Assembly: GCA_027858745.1 (NCBI GenBank)
Contig: JAQICB010000148.1
Coordinates: 1 to 45,855, forward strand
Direction of reading: 5' to 3'
Origin: Bacteroidales bacterium
Lineage (GTDB): Bacteria; Bacteroidota; Bacteroidia; Bacteroidales; UBA1715
Length of the DNA: 45,855 bases
Notes under the pieces: generated by a model
Database searches by the model: none
Seen by the model: only the letters and a program-made list of their open reading frames with translations
What the model was told of the DNA's origin: nothing
Program-made: the position numbers and the translations under genes
Part shown: piece by piece, positions 2,642 to 45,373 of the stretch
How positions within the stretch are numbered: the stretch's first letter is position 1
Layout: every line of letters starts with the position of its first letter

Positions 2642-3353
2642 CACATTCAATATGAGATTGTTTACAAAAGACAACAAAATAATATCGATAGCACGAAAAA
2701 ATTGCCATATACTTCCGGTTCTCAATCGTTTTGACATTCAGCCCGGATTACACGATTACACTATTGAAAAAATGTGTGCAGAAAAGAATATTAATGTTCA
2801 TTTTTTTCTTGCCATAATAAATACCTATGTATACCCACACTATTTTCCTCAAAAAGAACTCATTTCTTTTAGTCCCGATTTGATTATCAGCTACTTACTC
2901 AAAACGCACACGTATTACACAGAATATATAATTCCCGCTCTCGATACAAGTTTTAATTCACTTTTAGAAAGCACCTCCGAAAATTCAGACATTCATTTAC
3001 TGAAAACATTTTACGAAAATTTCAAAACAGAATTTTTAGCTCACAATCAGTCAGAAGAAGACTATCTATTTCCGTATATCAGGAAATTAGTAAGCGATTC
3101 ATCTATCGCTGACGGCAGGTTGGAGCATCAAACATTCGAAACAGAACACGAGCAAATTGAGGATAAACTACAGGATCTCAAAAATTTATTGCTTAAATAT
3201 ATTCAAACAGATTACAACACCAATTTGTACAACGAATTTATATGCAAACTATACATTTTGGAAAAAGATGCGAACGACCACTCGCGAATTGAAGATGCTA
3301 TATTATTACCAATAGCGCGCCAAATAGAAAAGAAGAGTATTAATGAAAACTGA
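2631..3353 (+). CDS. hemerythrin-like (HHE) domain protein, RIC/ScdA-like
   Basis: All-helical protein with spaced H/E motifs (LLKTHTYYTEYIIPAL, FLAHNQSEEDYLFPYI, FETEHEQIEDKL, DANDHSRIEDAILLPIA) typical of HHE cation-binding proteins. The start may be the internal ATG at 2652. Confidence 0.75.
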   Translation: MKNNTFNMRLFTKDNKIISIARKNCHILPVLNRFDIQPGLHDYTIEKMCAEKNINVHFFLAIINTYVYPHYFPQKELISFSPDLIISYLLKTHTYYTEYIIPALDTSFNSLLESTSENSDIHLLKTFYENFKTEFLAHNQSEEDYLFPYIRKLVSDSSIADGRLEHQTFETEHEQIEDKLQDLKNLLLKYIQTDYNTNLYNEFICKLYILEKDANDHSRIEDAILLPIARQIEKKSINEN

Positions 3354-28522: not shown

Positions 28523-30373
28523 ATGCATCGTATTATCATATTCATCATTACATTATTTGTGTGTTTTCATTCCTCCCTATATGCAGGAACTGGACAACCA
28601 AAAACAGAAAAAGATAGCTTGCAAAACGATTTTGTCGAACGCAAGCCATTAAAACGATTTTACATCAACGGTAATTATCGTGGCATGCTTTACTATCGCA
28701 ATCTGTCTGAATTATTTGACGGATCATATGCAGAAGAAAAAATGTTACTCAGCACCAACGACGGCGGGCGCAATCCACAACTCCAATTAGACATATCGGG
28801 CAGACCAACAGCAAGAACATACTTTCATACCGATATATTTCTATATTCTCCCATGCAAGGATTAGGGTACAACACCAACGAATCAGGCTTATCACTAGGC
28901 GTAAATATTGATGGAAACATCAACACAAACCACGGAAACATTTCATTTCGTCTCGGTGGTATTCAATACACAAAACTTTCAAGACTCAGCCTTTGGAGTA
29001 GCGAAAACAATGGAGAGAGTTTATTCGAAAAAAATCCGTGGGACTATTTCCAAACCACTGCACAAAACTACGAATCATATTACGGGCAAGGAACAATGCT
29101 CCGTTCGTTCCGATGGGGCAATCAGTTTGTGCAAGGACTAACAGTAACCATGAATGACATTCCCGGTAATTTTGAAGCAAAAGCATTGATTGCAAAAACC
29201 CCCAATAATGGCGGACAAGCCTCGTACCTCAACACCATTCCCGACATTTCATACGGTGGAAGTGTTATCAGACATTTCGGACAACATTATGTAGGCATCA
29301 ACACCTATCAATCTATTTCGAAATCAGACAGCATCAATGGTAAATTTGTAGGATACCGGGTATACTCAACCGATTTTAGTGTAAACTTGTGGGATAATGA
29401 CCTTACTTTTTCAGGAGAAATTGCTCACGGACAAAATGTACAATCCTCCGACATGAAAATGAGAACAGGAAATGGAATTGATGCCAAAATTCTTTCGAGA
29501 CGAAATTTACTTACTTTCCCAATTACATTACACGGCTATTACATTGAACCCGAATTTATAAATCTTAACGGCGGTTTTAAAACTTTTCTTGAAGATGCAA
29601 CCGGTTTCAACGGTGAAGGAGGATCGTCGAATCCAACCGGGGCGTATATGTCTGATGTGGATTACATCAATGGAAACCGAAAAGGAATAGACCTTCGCAC
29701 AGAATTTAACATAGCAGGACTCAAAATAAATGTAGCAAGCGGGGTTTCGCAAGAACTCGAACAGCGAGCTTCAACTATTTCGTATGTGCACCGCATTAAC
29801 GGATTGGTTTTCTCACGCATTTTCCAATACCAATCAAATATTGGTCCCGACAGCACATTCTACACTTATTTTAGAGGATATTATGAAGAACGCTCAATAG
29901 ACACAACTCACGCAGATTTTGCAGGAACACCCATACATTTTGCTGTATCAGAATGTAATTTAAAATACAAATTTTTTCTATTCGACAAACCAGTTTATGT
30001 ATTCTATTTAGCATCAATTACCACAACACAAAATGACTTTTCCGCGATTCCGGTAGGCAAAGAAAAAGCATTTGTGCATGCACACTATCACGAATTAGAG
30101 GCATACTTTACTATTACCGAAAAACTAGTATTAACCAGTTATCTCGGATATGAAAATATAAATGGCAACGAGGTCTTACAAGCTCCTACATTGAACAGTT
30201 CGAGAAAATTCAACCAAACAGGCAAATCTCTTGGTCTCGGATTAGACCTTGTGGTCGGACATTTAATTAATTTAAACTTACGTACTCGATGGTTTACGTT
30301 TAACGACACCTACTCGAGTGACAGTCATTACAATGGATTTGAAAGCTCACTGGAAATGAAAATATTCTTCTAA
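28523..30373 (+). CDS. outer-membrane beta-barrel-like protein (first of a tandem pair)
   Basis: Signal peptide MHRIIIFIITLFVCFHSSLYA; alternating amphipathic strands throughout; C-terminal aromatic-ending strand SSLEMKIFF. Confidence 0.65.
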   Translation: MHRIIIFIITLFVCFHSSLYAGTGQPKTEKDSLQNDFVERKPLKRFYINGNYRGMLYYRNLSELFDGSYAEEKMLLSTNDGGRNPQLQLDISGRPTARTYFHTDIFLYSPMQGLGYNTNESGLSLGVNIDGNINTNHGNISFRLGGIQYTKLSRLSLWSSENNGESLFEKNPWDYFQTTAQNYESYYGQGTMLRSFRWGNQFVQGLTVTMNDIPGNFEAKALIAKTPNNGGQASYLNTIPDISYGGSVIRHFGQHYVGINTYQSISKSDSINGKFVGYRVYSTDFSVNLWDNDLTFSGEIAHGQNVQSSDMKMRTGNGIDAKILSRRNLLTFPITLHGYYIEPEFINLNGGFKTFLEDATGFNGEGGSSNPTGAYMSDVDYINGNRKGIDLRTEFNIAGLKINVASGVSQELEQRASTISYVHRINGLVFSRIFQYQSNIGPDSTFYTYFRGYYEERSIDTTHADFAGTPIHFAVSECNLKYKFFLFDKPVYVFYLASITTTQNDFSAIPVGKEKAFVHAHYHELEAYFTITEKLVLTSYLGYENINGNEVLQAPTLNSSRKFNQTGKSLGLGLDLVVGHLINLNLRTRWFTFNDTYSSDSHYNGFESSLEMKIFF

Positions 30374-32112
30374 TGAAAGCACATAAAAAAAATATGCATA
30401 CTAACTTACCTTATAATATGAAAAAAATTCATCTTATTCTCACGTTTACATTTTTGTGCATAGCATCATTTGCACAAAATGAAAAAATTACATTCAACGG
30501 AACAACTCGCGGAATGATGGAGCACAATTGGCTTCCTCCCTCAGACACACTTAATATTGATAACAATATTGGTGGCGACGCATTAGTTGATTTACGATTA
30601 AATATATTACCCATAGAAAATATTCGAGTAAGTGCAACATTACGCTTGAAAAACGAAATTGGCGGATTTTGGGGGCAAGGAGCCGGTCTGGAATTACGGG
30701 AAATATACATAAAAGGCGTAGCCGGAAAATACTTTAAATACAAATTTGGCGATATTGATCACAAAATGACCCCCTATACCCTTTTTAATAATGAGGGAGA
30801 ATTTTCTCAATTTGACCCGGAAATATTTAATGATATTCGCTCAATTCAATTACAAGAAAACTTTAATTACGGAAACGCATGGCGACAGCAAGGCGGTATG
30901 CTTTCGACGCGATTAGGATTCGATTCATTTATTCACACAAGCGACCTCAGTGCTTTTGTGTTTCGCAATAGAAGCTTAAGCGATGGCGTAACCCCCGATA
31001 GATTACAAGGCGGTGCTCAAGCATACATAAACATTACCGAGACATCACACATCGGTATTAATTATATTAACTTATTTGATTTGCCCAAAACCGTTTCAAA
31101 TTCCGAACACGAAAAATACAATAACGATGTAACTTCGATTAGCATGAATATTGATGCATCTTTTTTTACAATTATTGGTGAAGCAGGTACGTCGGGCATT
31201 CATTATATTGACACAAATAATGTAAACACAATAAATCGAGAAGGAAACTTTTTTGAAGTTGGAATACAAAAAACACTTAAGTCAAACCGCCTTACTCTTT
31301 CGGGAACATTCCGAAGAGTGAGCGATGATTTCTTTAGTGCCGGTGCACAATCAAAACGCATTGATTATTCTCAAACACCGGAATTATTTGAAACCGTTTC
31401 ACCAAATATGTATACCCGTTCGGTAAATTTATTGGATATGATAAAAGATGCGAGCGTATACAATCAAACAATTACTCCTGAATTAATGGCATATAACCCT
31501 GTTTACAATCACGTTACACCATACGGTCAGGCTACACCAAACAGACAAGGTTTCACCTTTAAAGCAGACTATACCGACAGTCTCCATACATACACATCTC
31601 AGCTCGGTCTTCAATTACTCCGTAATGTTCGTGGCGAAGGAACAGAAGAGCTTCGTAATTATATCTTAGCACAATGGGATAACAAAATAAATCTCCACAC
31701 ACTATTTGATTTACAAAAAACCCTTGCACTTACCGGTGGTGTACAATATGCACGTTCAGACAGAGACGGCTTAGGATTGGTCTCGGATGTAAATCTACGC
31801 AGCACATCATGTGATATTGGTGTTGAGAAAGAACTTGTAAATCGTTTTGATGTACTAATCGGGGCACATTATTTAGTTTACAAAGGAACCGAATATTTGA
31901 GTATTCGTAACGAATTTAATGTCATTACCGATTACAATCTACAAACCTACGACGGAACACAAGGTTTATACTCTATGGGCTTTCGCTATCGATTTAACGA
32001 TAACATTTTTCTTACCTTGCAAGGAAATCAATTCAACTTGTTCGATGCAAAAAATTCAGATAATGACTATCAAATCAACCAAGTTTTTATATTATTTAAT
32101 TTGATGTTTTAA
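30373..32112 (+). CDS. outer-membrane beta-barrel-like protein (second of a tandem pair)
   Basis: Signal peptide MKKIHLILTFTFLCIASFAQ at an internal ATG (30418); beta-rich; C-terminal strand VFILFNLMF; segments alignable by eye to the preceding ORF. Confidence 0.65.
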   Translation: MKAHKKNMHTNLPYNMKKIHLILTFTFLCIASFAQNEKITFNGTTRGMMEHNWLPPSDTLNIDNNIGGDALVDLRLNILPIENIRVSATLRLKNEIGGFWGQGAGLELREIYIKGVAGKYFKYKFGDIDHKMTPYTLFNNEGEFSQFDPEIFNDIRSIQLQENFNYGNAWRQQGGMLSTRLGFDSFIHTSDLSAFVFRNRSLSDGVTPDRLQGGAQAYINITETSHIGINYINLFDLPKTVSNSEHEKYNNDVTSISMNIDASFFTIIGEAGTSGIHYIDTNNVNTINREGNFFEVGIQKTLKSNRLTLSGTFRRVSDDFFSAGAQSKRIDYSQTPELFETVSPNMYTRSVNLLDMIKDASVYNQTITPELMAYNPVYNHVTPYGQATPNRQGFTFKADYTDSLHTYTSQLGLQLLRNVRGEGTEELRNYILAQWDNKINLHTLFDLQKTLALTGGVQYARSDRDGLGLVSDVNLRSTSCDIGVEKELVNRFDVLIGAHYLVYKGTEYLSIRNEFNVITDYNLQTYDGTQGLYSMGFRYRFNDNIFLTLQGNQFNLFDAKNSDNDYQINQVFILFNLMF

Positions 32113-32129
32113 TACCAAAAAATACCATT

Positions 32130-33116
32130 ATGAAACAATTGATAACATATATTTTTGCACTAACAATAGTGGTAAATTTTGTGAGTTGTGAAAAAGAAGA
32201 TCCTGTCGGTCCTGATATTGTAGATTTGTATGGCGGATTTAAAATTCTCGACTCACTTTCTATTCCAAGTGCCACCATAGATTTTTCAACTACAGACTCC
32301 ATTCGTTTTGGTGGCACGTGGACCACACAAAACCAATGGCTCCTTACCATTACCGGACGAAAATCAGGAGCAATAAAAACACTGTCGGGAAAAACAAAAA
32401 TACTCGACACTACAATAGCTACGTGGAATGGTACAGCCGATAATATATTCTTTCAAAAAGAAATATGCGATGTTTCACTCTCATTTACCGGACAAGCCGA
32501 TACAATGAAAAGCACTGTTGAGATAAGCGGTTTGCACAATTACCAAGAAGACGGAATTGTTGTACACAATTTTGAAATATCTACAATCGATGTTTGGCCC
32601 GGAACTCAAACAAACGGAACCGGAACACTCATAACAGAAGGTGTAATTCCTCAAGGTGATACATACTTAAATCTTGAAGGATCTGAACCGGGAAATGCGT
32701 GGTACATCGCAGGGCTTCCACCATTTCAAGCTTCTGAACTTACCGACTCAGATTATTTACCATTTAACGATGCAGATACCGCAACAACTTACATTAACTT
32801 TTTTGTTCGCGGAAATGGATATCCCGAAACATTTGTAACACTCCAAACCAAAGAAGACGATAACGAAAACGGTACACATGAAGAAGCAAGCGAAGATTCA
32901 TACACTCATCGGTATCAAGTTACGGGTACCGAATGGAAAAAAGTTTCGATACCTCTATCTGCATTAACAAATGATGATGCCGCTGTGGGAAACAATATTC
33001 AAGAAATTAGCAAAATAACAAGCGTATATGTCATGCTATTTTCGGCAGGAACCGCAAATCCAACTCTCGGATGCGATATTGACTTTATTATATTAACTCA
33101 AGGAGCACCATTGTAA
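32130..33116 (+). CDS. surface lipoprotein, probable glycan-binding beta-sandwich
   Basis: Lipobox VSC followed by EKEDP (acidic, export-signal-like); C-terminal half resembles CBM/galactose-binding-like beta-sandwich (WKKVSIPLSAL...DIDFIIL). Confidence 0.65.
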   Translation: MKQLITYIFALTIVVNFVSCEKEDPVGPDIVDLYGGFKILDSLSIPSATIDFSTTDSIRFGGTWTTQNQWLLTITGRKSGAIKTLSGKTKILDTTIATWNGTADNIFFQKEICDVSLSFTGQADTMKSTVEISGLHNYQEDGIVVHNFEISTIDVWPGTQTNGTGTLITEGVIPQGDTYLNLEGSEPGNAWYIAGLPPFQASELTDSDYLPFNDADTATTYINFFVRGNGYPETFVTLQTKEDDNENGTHEEASEDSYTHRYQVTGTEWKKVSIPLSALTNDDAAVGNNIQEISKITSVYVMLFSAGTANPTLGCDIDFIILTQGAPL

Positions 33117-34960: not shown

Positions 34961-36199
34961 ATGAAGCATTTTTCAAATTATACCTTCTCTCTTATAATTC
35001 TAATGTGTACAACACTTATTACAAGTATAGGGTTTGCACAAGACAAAGCCTTATTTCCCTCATACAACACTGCTCCTCTTCCACCGGACAGCACCGAAAT
35101 GTCGAGTAATGCTTGGGAAATTGCCGCTCAAATGGGCTTAGGGTGGAATATTGGCAACACATTAGAAGCAACCGGGGGCGAAACAGCTTGGGGGAATCCG
35201 CAGGTAACAAAAAAACTTATTGATGAAGTAAAGAAAAACGGATTCAATTCAATTCGTATTCCCTGCGCATGGGATCAATATACAACGAGCAGTAAAACCG
35301 TAAAAATAAAAGAGTCTTGGTTTAAACGTGTACAAGAAGTTGTAGATTATTGCATTGAAAACGATATGTATGTTATACTTAATATACACTGGGATGGCGG
35401 CTGGCTCGAAAATAACTGCACGCCCGACAAACAAGTAGAAAATAATGCAAAACAACAAGCTCTCTGGGAGCAAATTGCGTCCTATTTCCGCGATTACGAC
35501 GAACGACTTCTGTTTGCCGGAACAAACGAACCCAATGTGAACAATGCAGAACAAATGGCAGTGTTACACTCCTACTTACAAACATTTATTGATGTAGTTC
35601 GTGCAACCGGCGGACGAAATGCATACCGAGTTCTCATTGTTCAAGGACCGTCTACCGATATTGAAAAGACCAATTCGCTGATGAAAACCTTACCAAAAGA
35701 CACGGTAAAAAATCGATTAATGGTCGAAGTACATTACTACACCCCCTTCAATTTCTGCGGGCTTACCGAAAATGCAGACTGGGGGCGTATGAATTATTAT
35801 TGGGGCAAACCGTATCTATCAGAAACCGATACCCTTCGAAATCCGACTTGGGGAGAAGAAGATGCTGCCGTTAAATATATGGCAATGATGAAAGAACAAT
35901 TTGTAGAAAAAGGTATTCCGGTAATTTTAGGTGAATATGGAGCAATACGACGAACAATGTTACCCCAAGATATTGTACAAACAAACCTCAATTCTCGTGC
36001 ATATTATGTGAGATATATTACACAACTAGCTATAGAAAATGGTCTAATTCCATTCTATTGGGACGAAGGTAGTCTTAAAAATCACGGATTTGGTATATTC
36101 AACCGACATACCGGAAAAGTTTTTGATTACCAAATGCTCAATGCAATAATTCAAGGAGCACGAACTGCTGACAATTATTATGACCTGAATTCGATATAA
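34961..36199 (+). CDS. GH5 endo-beta-glucanase (GH5_4-like; xyloglucanase candidate)
   Basis: MGLGWNIGNTLEA, FNSIRIPCAWDQY, FAGTNEPNV acid/base, VEVHYYTPFNFCG, VILGEYGA nucleophile. Confidence 0.9.
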   Translation: MKHFSNYTFSLIILMCTTLITSIGFAQDKALFPSYNTAPLPPDSTEMSSNAWEIAAQMGLGWNIGNTLEATGGETAWGNPQVTKKLIDEVKKNGFNSIRIPCAWDQYTTSSKTVKIKESWFKRVQEVVDYCIENDMYVILNIHWDGGWLENNCTPDKQVENNAKQQALWEQIASYFRDYDERLLFAGTNEPNVNNAEQMAVLHSYLQTFIDVVRATGGRNAYRVLIVQGPSTDIEKTNSLMKTLPKDTVKNRLMVEVHYYTPFNFCGLTENADWGRMNYYWGKPYLSETDTLRNPTWGEEDAAVKYMAMMKEQFVEKGIPVILGEYGAIRRTMLPQDIVQTNLNSRAYYVRYITQLAIENGLIPFYWDEGSLKNHGFGIFNRHTGKVFDYQMLNAIIQGARTADNYYDLNSI

Positions 36200-36231: not shown

Positions 36232-38058
36232 TCACTCAACAATAACTTTTTTATCTTTCGGATATTTAACCGAATAGGTAAGCTTTATCTCTTTGTTTCC
36301 ATGAGCTTGTAAATCTGTTTTCCATTCCACTTTTCCGGTTTCTGAATTATACGTCCCTCCAGACAATTCAATAATCTCAACCGTTATCTCTTTGTGTTTG
36401 GACACAGGAACCTGATCGAATATTTTTGTAGTAATCGGATACGATTTATTATTCCGTACTCGTATGGTATATCCAATAGTTTCTGTTGTGTTTGAACCAA
36501 TAAATTGACGCTTCGAAAAATCCCTCATTTTTTCACGTTCGATGCTTATATTATTATCTATACCAAATGAAATTTCCATAGTATCTTTAAATTGTTCGGT
36601 ATATATTTCTGTTTCTCCCACATAGGCATTTTCCATATAAATATGTGCCATACCGTCAATAAATTCAGCACTGTACCAGTCGCTTATTTTGGCAATTAAA
36701 AAAACATGTTCAGACAATTTTGGAATACTTTGATATTCAAAATTGGCAGATAGAGATGCTTGTTTATAGTTAATAGTTGTTTTTTTATTATTGGATACAA
36801 TCGTTTGCTTTACCTCAATACTATATTCATTAGATATTTCTCGTTTAGAAGTAATAGTTAATGGGGCAGAAAAGTCATCTGCATTTTTTATTGTTGTTAT
36901 TAACATCACACCATTGGCGCCACGACTACCATACATTGCTGTTGCAGAGGCATCTTTGAGCACCTCAACATGAGCAATTTCGGAAGGGTCTATATTGGAA
37001 ATACTTTTTTGCGGCACGCCGTCAACAACATATAAAGGTGTAGCATCTCCGATAGTACCTCTTCCGCGAATTAACACTTCGGGCTCCTCTTCAATCTCAT
37101 TATATGCAAAATCTTTTGATTTCTCTGCTGCATACATACCGGGTTTTGATACCATTGCTCTGCGAATTTCAGGATACAAATATTCCAAATAATACGGATG
37201 TAGTTCCGGTAAAATAGCAGAAATATCAGTCTGAGCAGTCGACAAGACAATATATACATCTTCCCAATCAACACCGGTGTTTTGTTTAATATTAGCTTTA
37301 TACGTAATATCGAGCGGTTTATTTAAGCTGACAAACCGAATATCGTATGAAGGGTACCATGTTGCGTTTTTAACTAAATAATTCAGCTTCAGAGATATAT
37401 TTTTTTCTTGTTTAGATTCGACCGTAACCAAAACGGTTCCCGAAGGTAATTTCGATTTACTATTAAGCGAAATTAATTGATTGTTTAATTTTAGAATTTC
37501 ATCTTTATATTCATTTATTGCACGATTTCGTTTCAACACCTCAAGATAAAGTAATTCAAGATTTGAACCAAAAAAAATATGGAGTGATTTAAAAGTCTCA
37601 GGATTAATTCCCTGTTCTTTTCCGCCAACTACTTTATTTGAATGCAAGAACTCTATTTTATCCTGAGCAATCCTCACATACGTTTTTTCATCTTCAATCT
37701 GAGCTTTAAGCTTTTCTATTTTAGAATTAATATCTTCAATATCTTTTCGTTTCTCAAGTTCATTAATAAAATCATGCTGATGTTGCACCGAAATGATGGT
37801 ATATCCGGCTCCACCCTCAACCCGAATACTTTCTTTTAAAATATAAGGAGAAAGACCCGTGAATTTCACAATAGTTTGTCCCGATAGCACCCGACACGCA
37901 CCTTCTCGTTGAACCTGTGCATCTTGTGTAAATACGGTAACTTGTGTGATTTTCGAATCGATTTCTTGTTCTTGTTGTGCAAAAGAACTAAAAGATAAAC
38001 TGCATACCAATACACATAAAAAAATAAACTGTTTCATAAAATTTGGTTTAGTGATCAT
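36232..38058 (-). CDS. MuiA/DUF4139-family protein with an internal TonB-plug-like segment
   Basis: DUF4140/DUF4139-type features (ITQVTVFTQDAQVQREG, coiled coil, LNYLVKNATWYPSYDIRF...WEDVYIVLSTAQ) interrupted by PLYVVDGVPQKSISNIDPSEIAHVEVLKDASATAMYGSRGANGVMLITT. Confidence 0.82.
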   Translation of the reverse strand: MITKPNFMKQFIFLCVLVCSLSFSSFAQQEQEIDSKITQVTVFTQDAQVQREGACRVLSGQTIVKFTGLSPYILKESIRVEGGAGYTIISVQHQHDFINELEKRKDIEDINSKIEKLKAQIEDEKTYVRIAQDKIEFLHSNKVVGGKEQGINPETFKSLHIFFGSNLELLYLEVLKRNRAINEYKDEILKLNNQLISLNSKSKLPSGTVLVTVESKQEKNISLKLNYLVKNATWYPSYDIRFVSLNKPLDITYKANIKQNTGVDWEDVYIVLSTAQTDISAILPELHPYYLEYLYPEIRRAMVSKPGMYAAEKSKDFAYNEIEEEPEVLIRGRGTIGDATPLYVVDGVPQKSISNIDPSEIAHVEVLKDASATAMYGSRGANGVMLITTIKNADDFSAPLTITSKREISNEYSIEVKQTIVSNNKKTTINYKQASLSANFEYQSIPKLSEHVFLIAKISDWYSAEFIDGMAHIYMENAYVGETEIYTEQFKDTMEISFGIDNNISIEREKMRDFSKRQFIGSNTTETIGYTIRVRNNKSYPITTKIFDQVPVSKHKEITVEIIELSGGTYNSETGKVEWKTDLQAHGNKEIKLTYSVKYPKDKKVIVE

Positions 38059-38741
38059 TAAAAATCAAAGGTATAACCTTTTTCAACTAATGTTTCATAT
38101 TTCTTTTTATTAAACGAATAAAGATTCGCCGCACGATGCGATACATTTTTCTGCTTTTCTTTTAAATCTTTTAAAATACCAATTTTAGCAAGTTTTTTCC
38201 GAAAATTTCGATTATCAATCTTTTTATTCAAAATTGCTTCATACAATGTTTGCAATTGGGTAATAGTAAATTTTTCCGGCAACAAATTATACCCGATTGG
38301 TTCGTAACGCACATGTTTTCGAAGTTTTATTAATGCAGCATCAAATATTTCTGTATGATCAAAAGGTAATTCAGGCACCTCATCAACCGAAATCCAACGT
38401 ACGTCTTGAGCATCGGCTCCAACATCAAGTTTATAATCAGAACTATTTATCAGTGCATAGTAACCAATGGTTATAACTCGTCGTTCAGGATAACGGTCAA
38501 TTTTCCCAAATGCACCAACTTCACGCAAAAACACATTTTTCAGTCCAGTTAAATCTTTTAATCGGCGGGCGGGAACGTGTGTCAAATCTTCGTCAACATA
38601 CACAAAACCACCGGGTAGCGACATCATTCCTTTACAGGGCTCAGTATTTCGTTTAATAAATAATGCTTTTAACTTTCCTTCGTCAAACCCGAATATTACA
38701 CAATCTATTGATAGATTATCAATTAAGAGACTCTCTTTCAT
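38058..38741 (-). CDS. Nudix-domain transcriptional regulator (NrtR/AraR-like)
   Basis: N-terminal Nudix fold (SLPGGFVYVDEDLTHVPARRLKDLTGL), C-terminal winged-helix region (FTITQLQTLYEAILNKKIDNRNFRKKLAKIGIL). Confidence 0.85.
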   Translation of the reverse strand: MKESLLIDNLSIDCVIFGFDEGKLKALFIKRNTEPCKGMMSLPGGFVYVDEDLTHVPARRLKDLTGLKNVFLREVGAFGKIDRYPERRVITIGYYALINSSDYKLDVGADAQDVRWISVDEVPELPFDHTEIFDAALIKLRKHVRYEPIGYNLLPEKFTITQLQTLYEAILNKKIDNRNFRKKLAKIGILKDLKEKQKNVSHRAANLYSFNKKKYETLVEKGYTFDF

Positions 38742-41331: not shown

Positions 41332-44067
41332 ATGAAAAGATTATTAGTATTACTTACAATGGGGTTAGGAAGTATTATAGGAGTATCACAACCAAGTATG
41401 ATTCAAGGAACAATATTAGATGCACAAACGCAAGAAGAATTAATTGGAGCAACAATATTTTTAATGGAAAATGAAACAATAGGCACAATGAGTAACTACG
41501 ACGGCACATTTGCACTGGACGTTCAGCCCGGCACATATACCGTTGTTTGTACCTATATAACATATGAAAATCAAGTACGAGAAAATATCACCCTAAAAAA
41601 AGGTCAAACTATTACTCTTAATTTTAACTTATCTATTGCCGCAGTAGAAATGGATAAAGTAGTAATAACGGCTCGTGCTAACAAAGAAAGTGAGATAATA
41701 TCGTTACTCGAGCAAAAAAACGCAACAGTAATGCAATCAAGTATCGGTGCACAAGAACTTTCCCGAAAAGGTGCATCGAATGTTGCCTCGGGAATTAAAA
41801 AAATGTCGGGGATTTCTATGATAGGCAGCAACCAATTATTTGTACGCGGTTTGGGTGACCGGTACAATAAAGCTTTATTAAATAATATGCCTATTCCCTC
41901 ACCTGATCCGACAAAAAAAGTAATTCAATTAGATCTTTTTCCGAGTGATGTGGTAAAAAACATTGGCGTTCATAAAGTATATTCAGCAGAATATTATGCA
42001 GATTATTCGGGAGCCTTAATTAATATTGAAACCAAAGATTATCCCGACAAAAAATTTCTTACCATTGGTGGAGGTATTGGATATAATAATCAAACTACCG
42101 GGAGAAATTTTATTGAAGCATATTCAGAAACCGATAATTTTTTGGGATTTGATGTGCAGCAACGAAATGAAATCCTCCCGGAGGAATACAAAATTGTTAA
42201 CCGAAATCAAAACAGCAAAGAATTATCTCGCGATATATTTTCGACTCACTTTGGCGATGTGCAATACAATGCACTACCCGACATTTCTCTAAATATAAGC
42301 GGTGGGAATTACTATATACTCAAAAACGGAAAATTCGGAGTGCTTTTTTCATCATCATTTTCCAACGATTATTTATTTGAAGATTATGTATATAATGCTC
42401 AACTTAAAGCAGACGGAACTATTAAAAATAAATTTCACAAAGACACATATACCTATTCAACACAATTCACAAATTTACTCAGTGCCTCATACATTTCGCA
42501 CAAAGGTGGGGTTATCAAAGCAAATATATTTTACACCTCGGAAACCGAAAATGTTGCTGAACTTAAATATGACGGCTGGGACAATGAAGGAGACTCTCTG
42601 TTTATTCGAAATTACAATTTCTCGAACAACCGTTTATATTATCTGCAAATCTTAGGAGACAAAGCTATTACGAGTAGCACATCATTGTCGTGGGACGCAG
42701 GATATTCACAAGCTGAATCATTTATTCCGGACAGACGACAAACGACCTACATTAAACAAAATAATAATTGGTATCTTTTTGCACTCAACCAGCAAGAAAC
42801 AGCACGTTTTTTTACCGACCAACAAGAATCGACCCTGAGTGGCTCGTTGAAAGGAAATTATCATCCGCAAAACGAATCGTATGAGATTTCAACCGGTATT
42901 GAAAGTAGCTATACAATGAAAGATTTTAATTCGTACGTCTATTTTTACGATATTTCTGCGGTGCAAAATATTGTTACCAACCCATACACACCACTGGATA
43001 TTTTTTCCGAAGAAAATTTTGAAGCAAATAATATATACATAAAAAACGGTAACAGCTATCCCATGCTATATACCGGTCAAAAACTTTTGGGAGCAGCATT
43101 TGCTTCCATAAACTATGAACCTAACGAACAAACCACCATTAATTTTGGACTTCGCTATGAATATGCGGACATAACTGTAACAGATTATAATCAAATAGGT
43201 ACGGCAACAGAAATACCATTGACCTCACATGATATATTTCCGACATTAAATATAAAATATAGCCGTACAGAAAATAAAAACATACGACTTGCGACAAGCA
43301 AAACTATTACCCGTCCCGGTTTTTACGAAAAATCTCCGGCAAGTGTTATACCCGCTTACGGCGAACCAAAAACCGAGGGTAATAAAAATTTAGAAAATGG
43401 CTACAACTACAATCTTGACCTGAAATATGAAATATTCCCCAAAACTGGAGAAATAATGTCTCTCGGCATATATGGAAAAATATTGGAAAATCCTATCGAA
43501 ATGATTAGTAAACCGACCGGGGGAACAATTATGTACTCATTCAAAAACACGGAACGAGGATATGCGACAGGAGCTGAAATCGAAATCAAAAAAATTAGAC
43601 ATGAACAATTTTTTGTTGGCACAAATGCAGCATATATATATACCTTTATTCGGGTTCCCGACAATGCAAACGAAACCGAAAAAACACGAGCAATGCAGGG
43701 AGCTTCACCCTATCTTATAAATGCAGATGCCGGATACCAATTTACATACGGAGAAAATGAAAAACACACTTCAAGCATAGCTCTTGTCTACAATGTATAT
43801 GGACAACGATTATATGCTGTGGGGAGCGGTGGCATGGGCAGTATTTTCGAAAAACCATTTCATTCACTCAATTTGGTTATAAAAAACAAACTGTCTGAAG
43901 TATGGAATGTTAATCTCAGCATTAAAAACATACTCTATCAAGAACAAACATATGTTCAGGGAGTAAATTACAATTTAGATACTAAAACATACGAACGATT
44001 CGAAACTTTGAAAAACTTTGAAAAAGGAATATCAGCAAATATAGACATCTCTTATACAATTAATTAA
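41332..44067 (+). CDS. TonB-dependent outer-membrane receptor with N-terminal carboxypeptidase-regulatory-like domain
   Basis: Signal peptide, QGTILDAQTQEELIGATIFL...NYDGTFALDVQPGTYTV, plug domain (LSRKGASNVASGIKKMSGISMIGSNQLFVRGLGDRYN), long C-terminal beta-barrel. Confidence 0.9.
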   Translation: MKRLLVLLTMGLGSIIGVSQPSMIQGTILDAQTQEELIGATIFLMENETIGTMSNYDGTFALDVQPGTYTVVCTYITYENQVRENITLKKGQTITLNFNLSIAAVEMDKVVITARANKESEIISLLEQKNATVMQSSIGAQELSRKGASNVASGIKKMSGISMIGSNQLFVRGLGDRYNKALLNNMPIPSPDPTKKVIQLDLFPSDVVKNIGVHKVYSAEYYADYSGALINIETKDYPDKKFLTIGGGIGYNNQTTGRNFIEAYSETDNFLGFDVQQRNEILPEEYKIVNRNQNSKELSRDIFSTHFGDVQYNALPDISLNISGGNYYILKNGKFGVLFSSSFSNDYLFEDYVYNAQLKADGTIKNKFHKDTYTYSTQFTNLLSASYISHKGGVIKANIFYTSETENVAELKYDGWDNEGDSLFIRNYNFSNNRLYYLQILGDKAITSSTSLSWDAGYSQAESFIPDRRQTTYIKQNNNWYLFALNQQETARFFTDQQESTLSGSLKGNYHPQNESYEISTGIESSYTMKDFNSYVYFYDISAVQNIVTNPYTPLDIFSEENFEANNIYIKNGNSYPMLYTGQKLLGAAFASINYEPNEQTTINFGLRYEYADITVTDYNQIGTATEIPLTSHDIFPTLNIKYSRTENKNIRLATSKTITRPGFYEKSPASVIPAYGEPKTEGNKNLENGYNYNLDLKYEIFPKTGEIMSLGIYGKILENPIEMISKPTGGTIMYSFKNTERGYATGAEIEIKKIRHEQFFVGTNAAYIYTFIRVPDNANETEKTRAMQGASPYLINADAGYQFTYGENEKHTSSIALVYNVYGQRLYAVGSGGMGSIFEKPFHSLNLVIKNKLSEVWNVNLSIKNILYQEQTYVQGVNYNLDTKTYERFETLKNFEKGISANIDISYTIN

Positions 44068-44098: not shown

Positions 44099-45373
44099 AT
44101 GAAAAAAGTACAATTACATGTAGCTATTGCAGCTATCAGTTTAGTTTTAGGCATGATGCTCACATCGTGTAAAGACGACCCGGAAAATCCGGAAAACAAC
44201 GCAGACACAGTTCTCACAGGAAAAATTACTGAGGACTTAACGCTTACCAGTGATCAAACATGGTATTTACGTGGAGATGTACACGTGGTGGCACCGGCAA
44301 TCTTAACAATTGAGGAAGGTGCCCAAATCGTCGCACAATCAGACGTTATTACCTATTTATTGATTGAACAAGGAGCGAAAATTGAAGCAGTCGGATCTGC
44401 TGCAAAACCTATCGTTTTTACTGCTGACGTGAAAGAAAGCGGTGCATGGGGATCTATTCACATTTGTGGTAAAGCTCCTATTAACGTAGAAGGTGGTGCA
44501 GGTTCTTCAGAAATTGGTGATGCAGCTTATGGAGGAAGTGCAGCTGACGACAATTCAGGAATAATGAAATATTGTATACTTGAATACACCGGAACAAGTT
44601 TAGATGAAGAGCACGAATCTAACGGCTTATCGCTTTACGGTGTTGGAAACAGAACAACACTTGAGTATATTCAAATATATAAAGGTGATGACGACGGAAT
44701 TGAGTTTTTTGGTGGTACCGTAAACATTAAATATACAATGGTGTATGGTGCAAAAGACGACAGTTTCGACTGGACACAAGGTTGGTCAGGAAAAGGTCAA
44801 TATTTATTGGCAAAACAAATAGCAGGTATGGGAGATCGTGGTTTTGAAGGTGATAACAACTCAAAAAACAACGCAGTAAGTCCGTTTGCAAACCCTACAT
44901 TGGCAAACATAACCTTAGTCGGTGGATATGAATTAAGCGACAATGCCGGAATATATGGCATGAAACTTCGTGAAGGGACAAAAGGTAAAATTTACAACGC
45001 TGTTGTTACCGGTTTCGACAAACGTTCTATTCATGTTGAGCATAACCAAACACTTACAAACGTTAACAACGGCGACTTAGTTGTTGATTATGCAGTTGTA
45101 AATTCTGATGTTTCTGATGCAGCTATTAAATATTCAGTGTCAAAAGTTATGGACGGAGACACAGAAATTGACGACCCGAATGGTCCAACTGTTGAAGAAA
45201 ACAAAAAATTCGAAACATCAACAAACGTTAAAGTCGAAACAGTTGCAAAATCTACGTCTGCAACATTTACCGGTGGTAAAGATGTGAGCATTGATGATTC
45301 ATGGTTCGAATCTGATACAAACATCGGCTCAGGAGACTCGTGGTTAAACGGCTGGGCACGTATAGATTTTTAA
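44099..45373 (+). CDS. surface lipoprotein, beta-helix-like, partner of the upstream TonB receptor
   Basis: Lipobox TSC followed by KDDPE (LES-like acidic motif); TWYLRGDVHVVAPAILTIEEGAQI...GSAAKPIVFTADVKESGAWGSIHICG typical of Bacteroidetes beta-helix lipoproteins; 31-nt gap to the receptor. Confidence 0.75.
   Translation: MKKVQLHVAIAAISLVLGMMLTSCKDDPENPENNADTVLTGKITEDLTLTSDQTWYLRGDVHVVAPAILTIEEGAQIVAQSDVITYLLIEQGAKIEAVGSAAKPIVFTADVKESGAWGSIHICGKAPINVEGGAGSSEIGDAAYGGSAADDNSGIMKYCILEYTGTSLDEEHESNGLSLYGVGNRTTLEYIQIYKGDDDGIEFFGGTVNIKYTMVYGAKDDSFDWTQGWSGKGQYLLAKQIAGMGDRGFEGDNNSKNNAVSPFANPTLANITLVGGYELSDNAGIYGMKLREGTKGKIYNAVVTGFDKRSIHVEHNQTLTNVNNGDLVVDYAVVNSDVSDAAIKYSVSKVMDGDTEIDDPNGPTVEENKKFETSTNVKVETVAKSTSATFTGGKDVSIDDSWFESDTNIGSGDSWLNGWARIDF

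Follow-up and report, generated by a model that had tools for sequence, protein, structure and literature searches.

A MuiA-type gene with an interrupted DUF4139 domain

The window analysed here is a stretch of 45,855 nucleotides from a Bacteroidales bacterium (assembly GCA_027858745.1, contig JAQICB010000148.1); its relevant features are collected in Table 1. The DUF4140/DUF4139 gene, the only DUF4139 gene of its genome, encodes a protein that scores well above the cut-off of the MuiA family (TIGR02231, 283.2 versus 112.6 bits), and its probable start is the second Met (ATG 38035–38037, MKQFIFL...). DUF4139 (PF13598) is recovered as a single match that is interrupted by an insert (residues 223–601, profile 1–205, 171 bits). 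No barrel family matches within the 608-aa protein, whose ORF closes at residue 608 with DUF4139 as the C-terminus. A preliminary description of this DNA had called the host a DUF4140/DUF4139-like protein without a C-terminal barrel, and the Pfam and TIGR02231 matches and the end of the ORF bear this out.

Table 1. Features of the DUF4139 locus and its flanking genes
Feature	Position	Strand	Basis
DUF4140/DUF4139 (MuiA-family) gene with SusC half-plug	36232..38058	-	single intact ORF, 608 codons/608 aa; TIGR02231 and Pfam
Signal-peptide-like N-terminus, residues 8–28, MKQFIFLCVLVCSLSFSSFAQ	37975..38037	-	sequence; AlphaFold helix 7–21
DUF4140, residues 40–138	37645..37941	-	Pfam PF13600, E 1.7e-18, 67.3 bits
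Long helical pair, coiled-coil-like, residues 105–202	37453..37746	-	AlphaFold helices 105–140 and 153–202
DUF4139, first part, residues 223–290	37189..37392	-	Pfam PF13598
Tether from DUF4139 to folded half-plug, residues 291–339	37042..37188	-	AlphaFold; pLDDT < 50 at 291–324
SusC-type half-plug, residues 327–391	36886..37080	-	Pfam Plug, TIGR04057, AlphaFold, Foldseek
Second disordered tether, residues 394–405	36844..36879	-	AlphaFold pLDDT < 50
DUF4139, second part, residues 406–601	36256..36843	-	Pfam and AlphaFold
Nudix/AraR-NrtR-type regulator, upstream of DUF4139 gene	38058..38741	-	Pfam NUDIX, NrtR_WHD and AraR_C
GH5 gene converging on DUF4139 gene	34961..36199	+	Pfam Cellulase, E 6e-57

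The window protein shares with the MuiA family (TIGR02231, PF13598, PF13600) the whole body, the signal-peptide-like start and the coiled-coil region. It differs in the loop between the DUF4139 halves, which bears a SusC piece that most relatives of the same family lack. Judged by its sequence, the protein is probably secreted and periplasmic. The mucoidy-inhibiting name MuiA comes from other bacteria. The MuiA papers that we found concern Pseudomonas, and we found no role reported for DUF4139/MuiA in Bacteroidota.

Since the stop codon of the upstream regulator touches the DUF4139 ORF, the two genes are likely to be co-transcribed. On the other side the gene had been described as converging on the end of a xyloglucan operon. 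The converging GH5 gene is indeed present, but the association with the xyloglucan-type cluster looks incidental, because gene clustering across 86 loci found no constant neighbour and the most frequent family beside the DUF4139 gene recurs in at most 19 of them. Elsewhere in the window, three consecutive genes at 28523–33116 have no Pfam or NCBIfam match, two of them outer-membrane beta-barrel-like and one lipoprotein-like; a CBM30-containing protein and GH5 come after them, and we found no adjacent SusC/SusD pair. A TBDT-like protein of 911 aa (41332–44067, plus strand; CarboxypepD_reg and Plug) is followed by a lipoprotein-like gene (44099–45373), with an adjoining response regulator on the opposite strand.

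Sequence and predicted fold of the insert

The insert is SusC-derived. It scores above the gathering cut-off for Pfam Plug (PF07715, match at residues 320–384, E 8.5e-11, 42.8 versus 23.9 bits) and above the cut-off for the SusC_RagA_signa model (TIGR04057, 58.3 versus 46.2 bits), and solved SusC chains match it at up to E 2e-15 (phmmer). All positions that are invariant in 24 comparison plug segments are kept. The SusC-type plug motif reported in the preliminary description is therefore real, and its peptide was correctly recognised (residues 328–390, 36889–37077, minus strand), although the coordinates given for it, 36893–37087, are off by up to about 10 bases. What was taken for a plug domain is, however, only its C-terminal half: the match covers profile positions 40–107 of 107, the N-terminal half is missing, and domain scans and sequence inspection of the loop found neither the NTE (PF13715) nor a Ton box. 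The full SusC/RagA receptor model (TIGR04056) is matched over positions 134–251 of 981 with 102 bits, far below its cut-off of 368.25. Thus, the window protein shares half-plug sequence, signature and predicted fold with SusC/RagA receptors such as Bt1763, but has half a plug and no barrel, NTE or Ton box; some of its relatives, e.g. L095, bear both NTE and Ton box, arranged as in SusC.

AlphaFold modelling of the window protein (71-row alignment, mean pLDDT 87) places most of the DUF4140/coiled-coil/DUF4139 body above 90 and, between disordered tethers, residues 340–393 as a compact unit with pLDDT of about 90. In a Foldseek search the excised half-plug (pLDDT 80) finds SusC plugs as its best PDB matches, headed by the dextran SusC (TM 0.72, rmsd 2.2 Å) and followed by other SusC proteins, RagA and further TBDTs. 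The captured half-plug is thus predicted to fold by itself on flexible tethers. In the plug of BtuB, the N-terminal half is force-labile and the C-terminal half, 64 residues long, is force-resistant (PMC5413942); by its profile position, the window insert would be the counterpart of the force-resistant half. When the whole protein was searched with Foldseek, its matches were weak and low in TM (AP2 mu2 adaptin, E 2.9e-4, TM 0.14–0.28; AcrA/YbjP), from which we drew nothing about function.

SusC pieces in the DUF4139 loop across Bacteroidota

DUF4139 is present in 13 of the 14 genomes of the window's family, with a plug in the loop only in the window and in G013. In the remaining proteins both flanks align and the plug is missing. 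Together with the domain scans and the structure prediction, these mostly plug-free relatives with the same flanks uphold the proposal of a domain transplant from SusC into a DUF4139 protein. The transplant is not singular. In a phylum-wide sample of 396 genomes, 116 had a match above the Pfam cut-off, and the strong matches were retrieved and aligned; all 84 proteins scanned with Pfam contain DUF4139 and DUF4140, 28 of them carry CarbopepD_reg_2 (the family of the SusC NTE) and 9 carry Plug. The domain search proposed in the preliminary description finds SusC pieces at this loop in many Bacteroidota. Three proteins (L090, L095 and L099) hold NTE and plug together in SusC order. Many further loops contain 'LxEVVVTGYG' alone, and remnants such as LQEVVVxGY also occur by themselves. 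Bt1763 has DEVVVTG as its Ton box and an NTE of the family PF13715; deletion or replacement of this Ton box impairs growth on levan, as does loss of SusD (PMC7782687). A strict Ton-box pattern is found in 53 of 182 DUF4139 loops, where shuffling predicts 0.28, and nowhere else in the proteins. The loop between the DUF4139 halves is a hotspot for N-terminal parts of SusC in Bacteroidota.

A scan of named genomes yielded 80 loci, mainly from Chitinophagaceae and Flavobacterium, 66 of them with a plug (64 by pattern, two by eye); the query alignment consisted mostly of plug-bearing proteins, and this fraction is not an estimate of phylum frequency. Plug calls outside Pfam are pattern-based, and some loci come from MAGs. 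Among 200 Flavobacterium genomes, only 7 align across the plug and many more align in the flanks alone; the loops that do carry a plug are not alike. Viral contigs contained no relatives, and a FecR_C scan of the relatives returned nothing relevant.

SusC-type plugs also occur on other non-transporters. Two M56 (BlaR1-type) peptidases of Bacteroidota (L149:437–2149 and L150:386–2353) likewise bear a half-plug; theirs is C-terminal on a membrane peptidase and more diverged than that of the window (Plug 24.7 and 18.5 bits). A stand-alone secreted protein of 176 aa (L124, 1426–1956, minus strand; Plug E 3.6e-17) has a SusC-type plug without barrel, as in the window, but the plug is near-complete and there is no host domain. 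It lies near a sigma-factor-like ORF, in the same genome as L036, whose DUF4139 bears a near-complete plug. Upstream of another DUF4139 gene, L094:2981–3355 (minus strand) encodes a plug-like stretch (PLVLIDGAVS...NGLIVVITK) with no Pfam match; in L092, a relative of L094, the gene adjoining DUF4139 resembles a von Willebrand A-type protein.

Repeated gain and loss, and replacement of cassettes

We compared plug presence with a tree of the DUF4139 flanks (211 proteins, insert columns removed). It requires 16 changes in plug presence, 14 of them forced by strongly supported branches, versus 65 with shuffled labels. Plug presence is clustered on the tree, yet the plug was gained or lost repeatedly. 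Both this tree and that of the plug segments were built with FastTree and have long branches, and the position of the window in the flank tree is unsure. In the plug-segment tree the window plug is nested among SusC plugs, apart from the other DUF4139 plugs, with moderate support (0.78–0.86). Its best full-length matches in 11 genomes come from SusC proteins, one in its own genome (66%) and others in two family members (65%), and identity to the DUF4139 plug of G013 is 55%. Since it is nearest to SusC plugs and not to DUF4139 plugs, the window plug most likely stems from a capture event of its own, with a SusC as the source. A single donor could not be named: SusC of its own family is best over ~62 residues, and several SusC plugs tie at 0.67 over the core. 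Nucleotide identity amounts to no more than 69–80%, over partial stretches. At third codon positions the G+C of the insert (0.30) is similar to that of the body (0.25), hence there is no signal of foreign DNA. Elsewhere, the DUF4139 plug of G030 shares 88% identity with a SusC from the same genome. The DUF4139 protein of G013 (L005, G013:C24) groups with Chitinophagaceae-type proteins and not with its own family (support 0.99), which may reflect horizontal transfer or a binning error.

Cassette replacement is seen in Ferruginibacter. The loci of F. paludis and a Ferruginibacter MAG (L173 and L189) are ~98% identical across 7.5 kb and diverge strongly essentially only in the DUF4139 loop (47–65% identity at nt 3121–3360 of L173), where both versions are SusC-like. 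In Pinibacter, too, loops are more diverged than bodies; Solitalea presents the reverse case, with greater similarity in the loop (pS 0.06) than in the body (0.46–0.50). The order of Ton box and LQGxVAGV motif is reversed from that of SusC in 30 of the 39 loops with both motifs versus 1 of 11 SusC controls; as most of the loops belong to related Chitinophagaceae, they do not represent 30 independent reversals.

Selection on the plug

For close pairs with measurable dS, plug dN/dS is mostly 0.03–0.18, with outliers of 0.29 (very little change) and 0.46. These values are below those of most linkers and near that of the N-terminal body. The DUF4139 plugs of Chitinophagaceae follow a distinct consensus: 95% carry Asn at the Asp of VDG, which is 100% conserved in SusC, and in 94% the final TT is changed to TL. 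The window copy, which has no close plug-bearing relative, keeps the SusC letters at these sites. The Chitinophagaceae consensus argues for a maintained new constraint on the plug in this clade. Selection on the long-held plugs is supported by these sequence comparisons, and their low dN/dS together with their own consensus suggests that they have a function.

A possible tethered SusC mimic or a tolerant loop

The most likely reading, to which we give about an even chance, is that the insert is a tethered interaction module that mimics SusC, with the retained pieces linking the DUF4139 protein to importer machinery. The exposed loop between the DUF4139 halves has captured the force-resistant C-terminal half of such a plug, as one instance of a phylum-wide process in which N-terminal modules of SusC (NTE, Ton box, LQGxVAGV segment, plug) come and go, change their order and are exchanged as cassettes. 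Such pieces would be retained because, to a partner that usually deals with SusC N-termini, they pass for SusC. For forms with a Ton box this partner would be TonB, bound directly. The window copy has neither Ton box nor NTE, and binding of TonB by the known route is therefore excluded; for this and other half-plug forms the partner would be a SusC barrel or a periplasmic factor that handles plugs. The result would be a DUF4139 protein tethered to the importer machinery. Both the partner and the tethering role are what we infer; partner docking or oligomerisation, named in the preliminary description, are hypothetical roles for the insert. Besides the missing Ton box and NTE, three points count against tethering: close relatives of the window gene lack the plug, a tolerant, non-functional loop would equally show loss and permutation of pieces, and no conserved neighbour gene pointing to a function was seen.

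The main rival is a passive recombination hotspot, which we consider somewhat unlikely. Many of these genomes abound in SusC genes, and the DUF4139 loop, being disordered, may simply tolerate fragments that recombine into it in frame, fold and do no harm, with no further role. Such a loop would be consistent with the variation of plug presence inside Flavobacterium, the reversed motif order, the leftover motifs, the L173/L189 swap, and the insert-free relatives with intact flanks. The low dN/dS of the plug next to faster linkers, the distinct fixed consensus of Chitinophagaceae and the strong enrichment of Ton boxes in loops speak against it. Moreover, the insert respects fold boundaries, and plugs recur on M56 peptidases and on the stand-alone secreted protein.

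A more far-reaching reading, rather unlikely in our estimate, is that the DUF4139 cassette site of Bacteroidota is dedicated and rapidly exchanged, and displays SusC-mimicking modules outside transporters. The modules would engage TonB or the machinery of importer biogenesis, or compete for either, or act as decoys for agents that exploit TonB-dependent import. Exchange might also be driven by an antagonist (phage, bacteriocin or secreted toxin) or by self-recognition, in which case the SusC pieces would supply the material for change or serve as a decoy for agents that exploit TonB. The confinement of divergence to the loop in L173/L189 and the more divergent loops of Pinibacter fit such a variable recognition loop, which is nevertheless quite improbable given the likely periplasmic location, with no surface anchor seen, core SusC motifs that are conserved and not diversifying, and the few close pairs behind the comparison. 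Finally, we reject a chimera formed from a SusC fragment and a DUF4139 gene during assembly or binning; assembly error was the main alternative envisaged in the preliminary description. The window is one of the 169 contigs of a draft assembly, but both insert junctions are in frame and the same architecture recurs at the same loop position in many independent genomes across Bacteroidota, including single-contig assemblies and named isolates.

Implications for SusC modules and the MuiA family

Plug and NTE domains are usually regarded solely as parts of TonB-dependent transporters. In a literature search we found no papers on DUF4139 with a plug domain or on DUF4139 in Bacteroidetes; the papers retrieved do not describe plug capture in DUF4139, and in one of them (PMC12204202) the plug receives no more than a passing mention. 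Deletion of the NTE of Bt1763 abolishes detectable growth on levan (PMC7782687). The capture site bears on what the NTE of SusC is for and on what recognises the plug, and as a recurrent site for plug and NTE in a widespread protein it offers a handle on DUF4139/MuiA. Overall, it provides a clear natural case of modules that were transplanted into one loop and then maintained.
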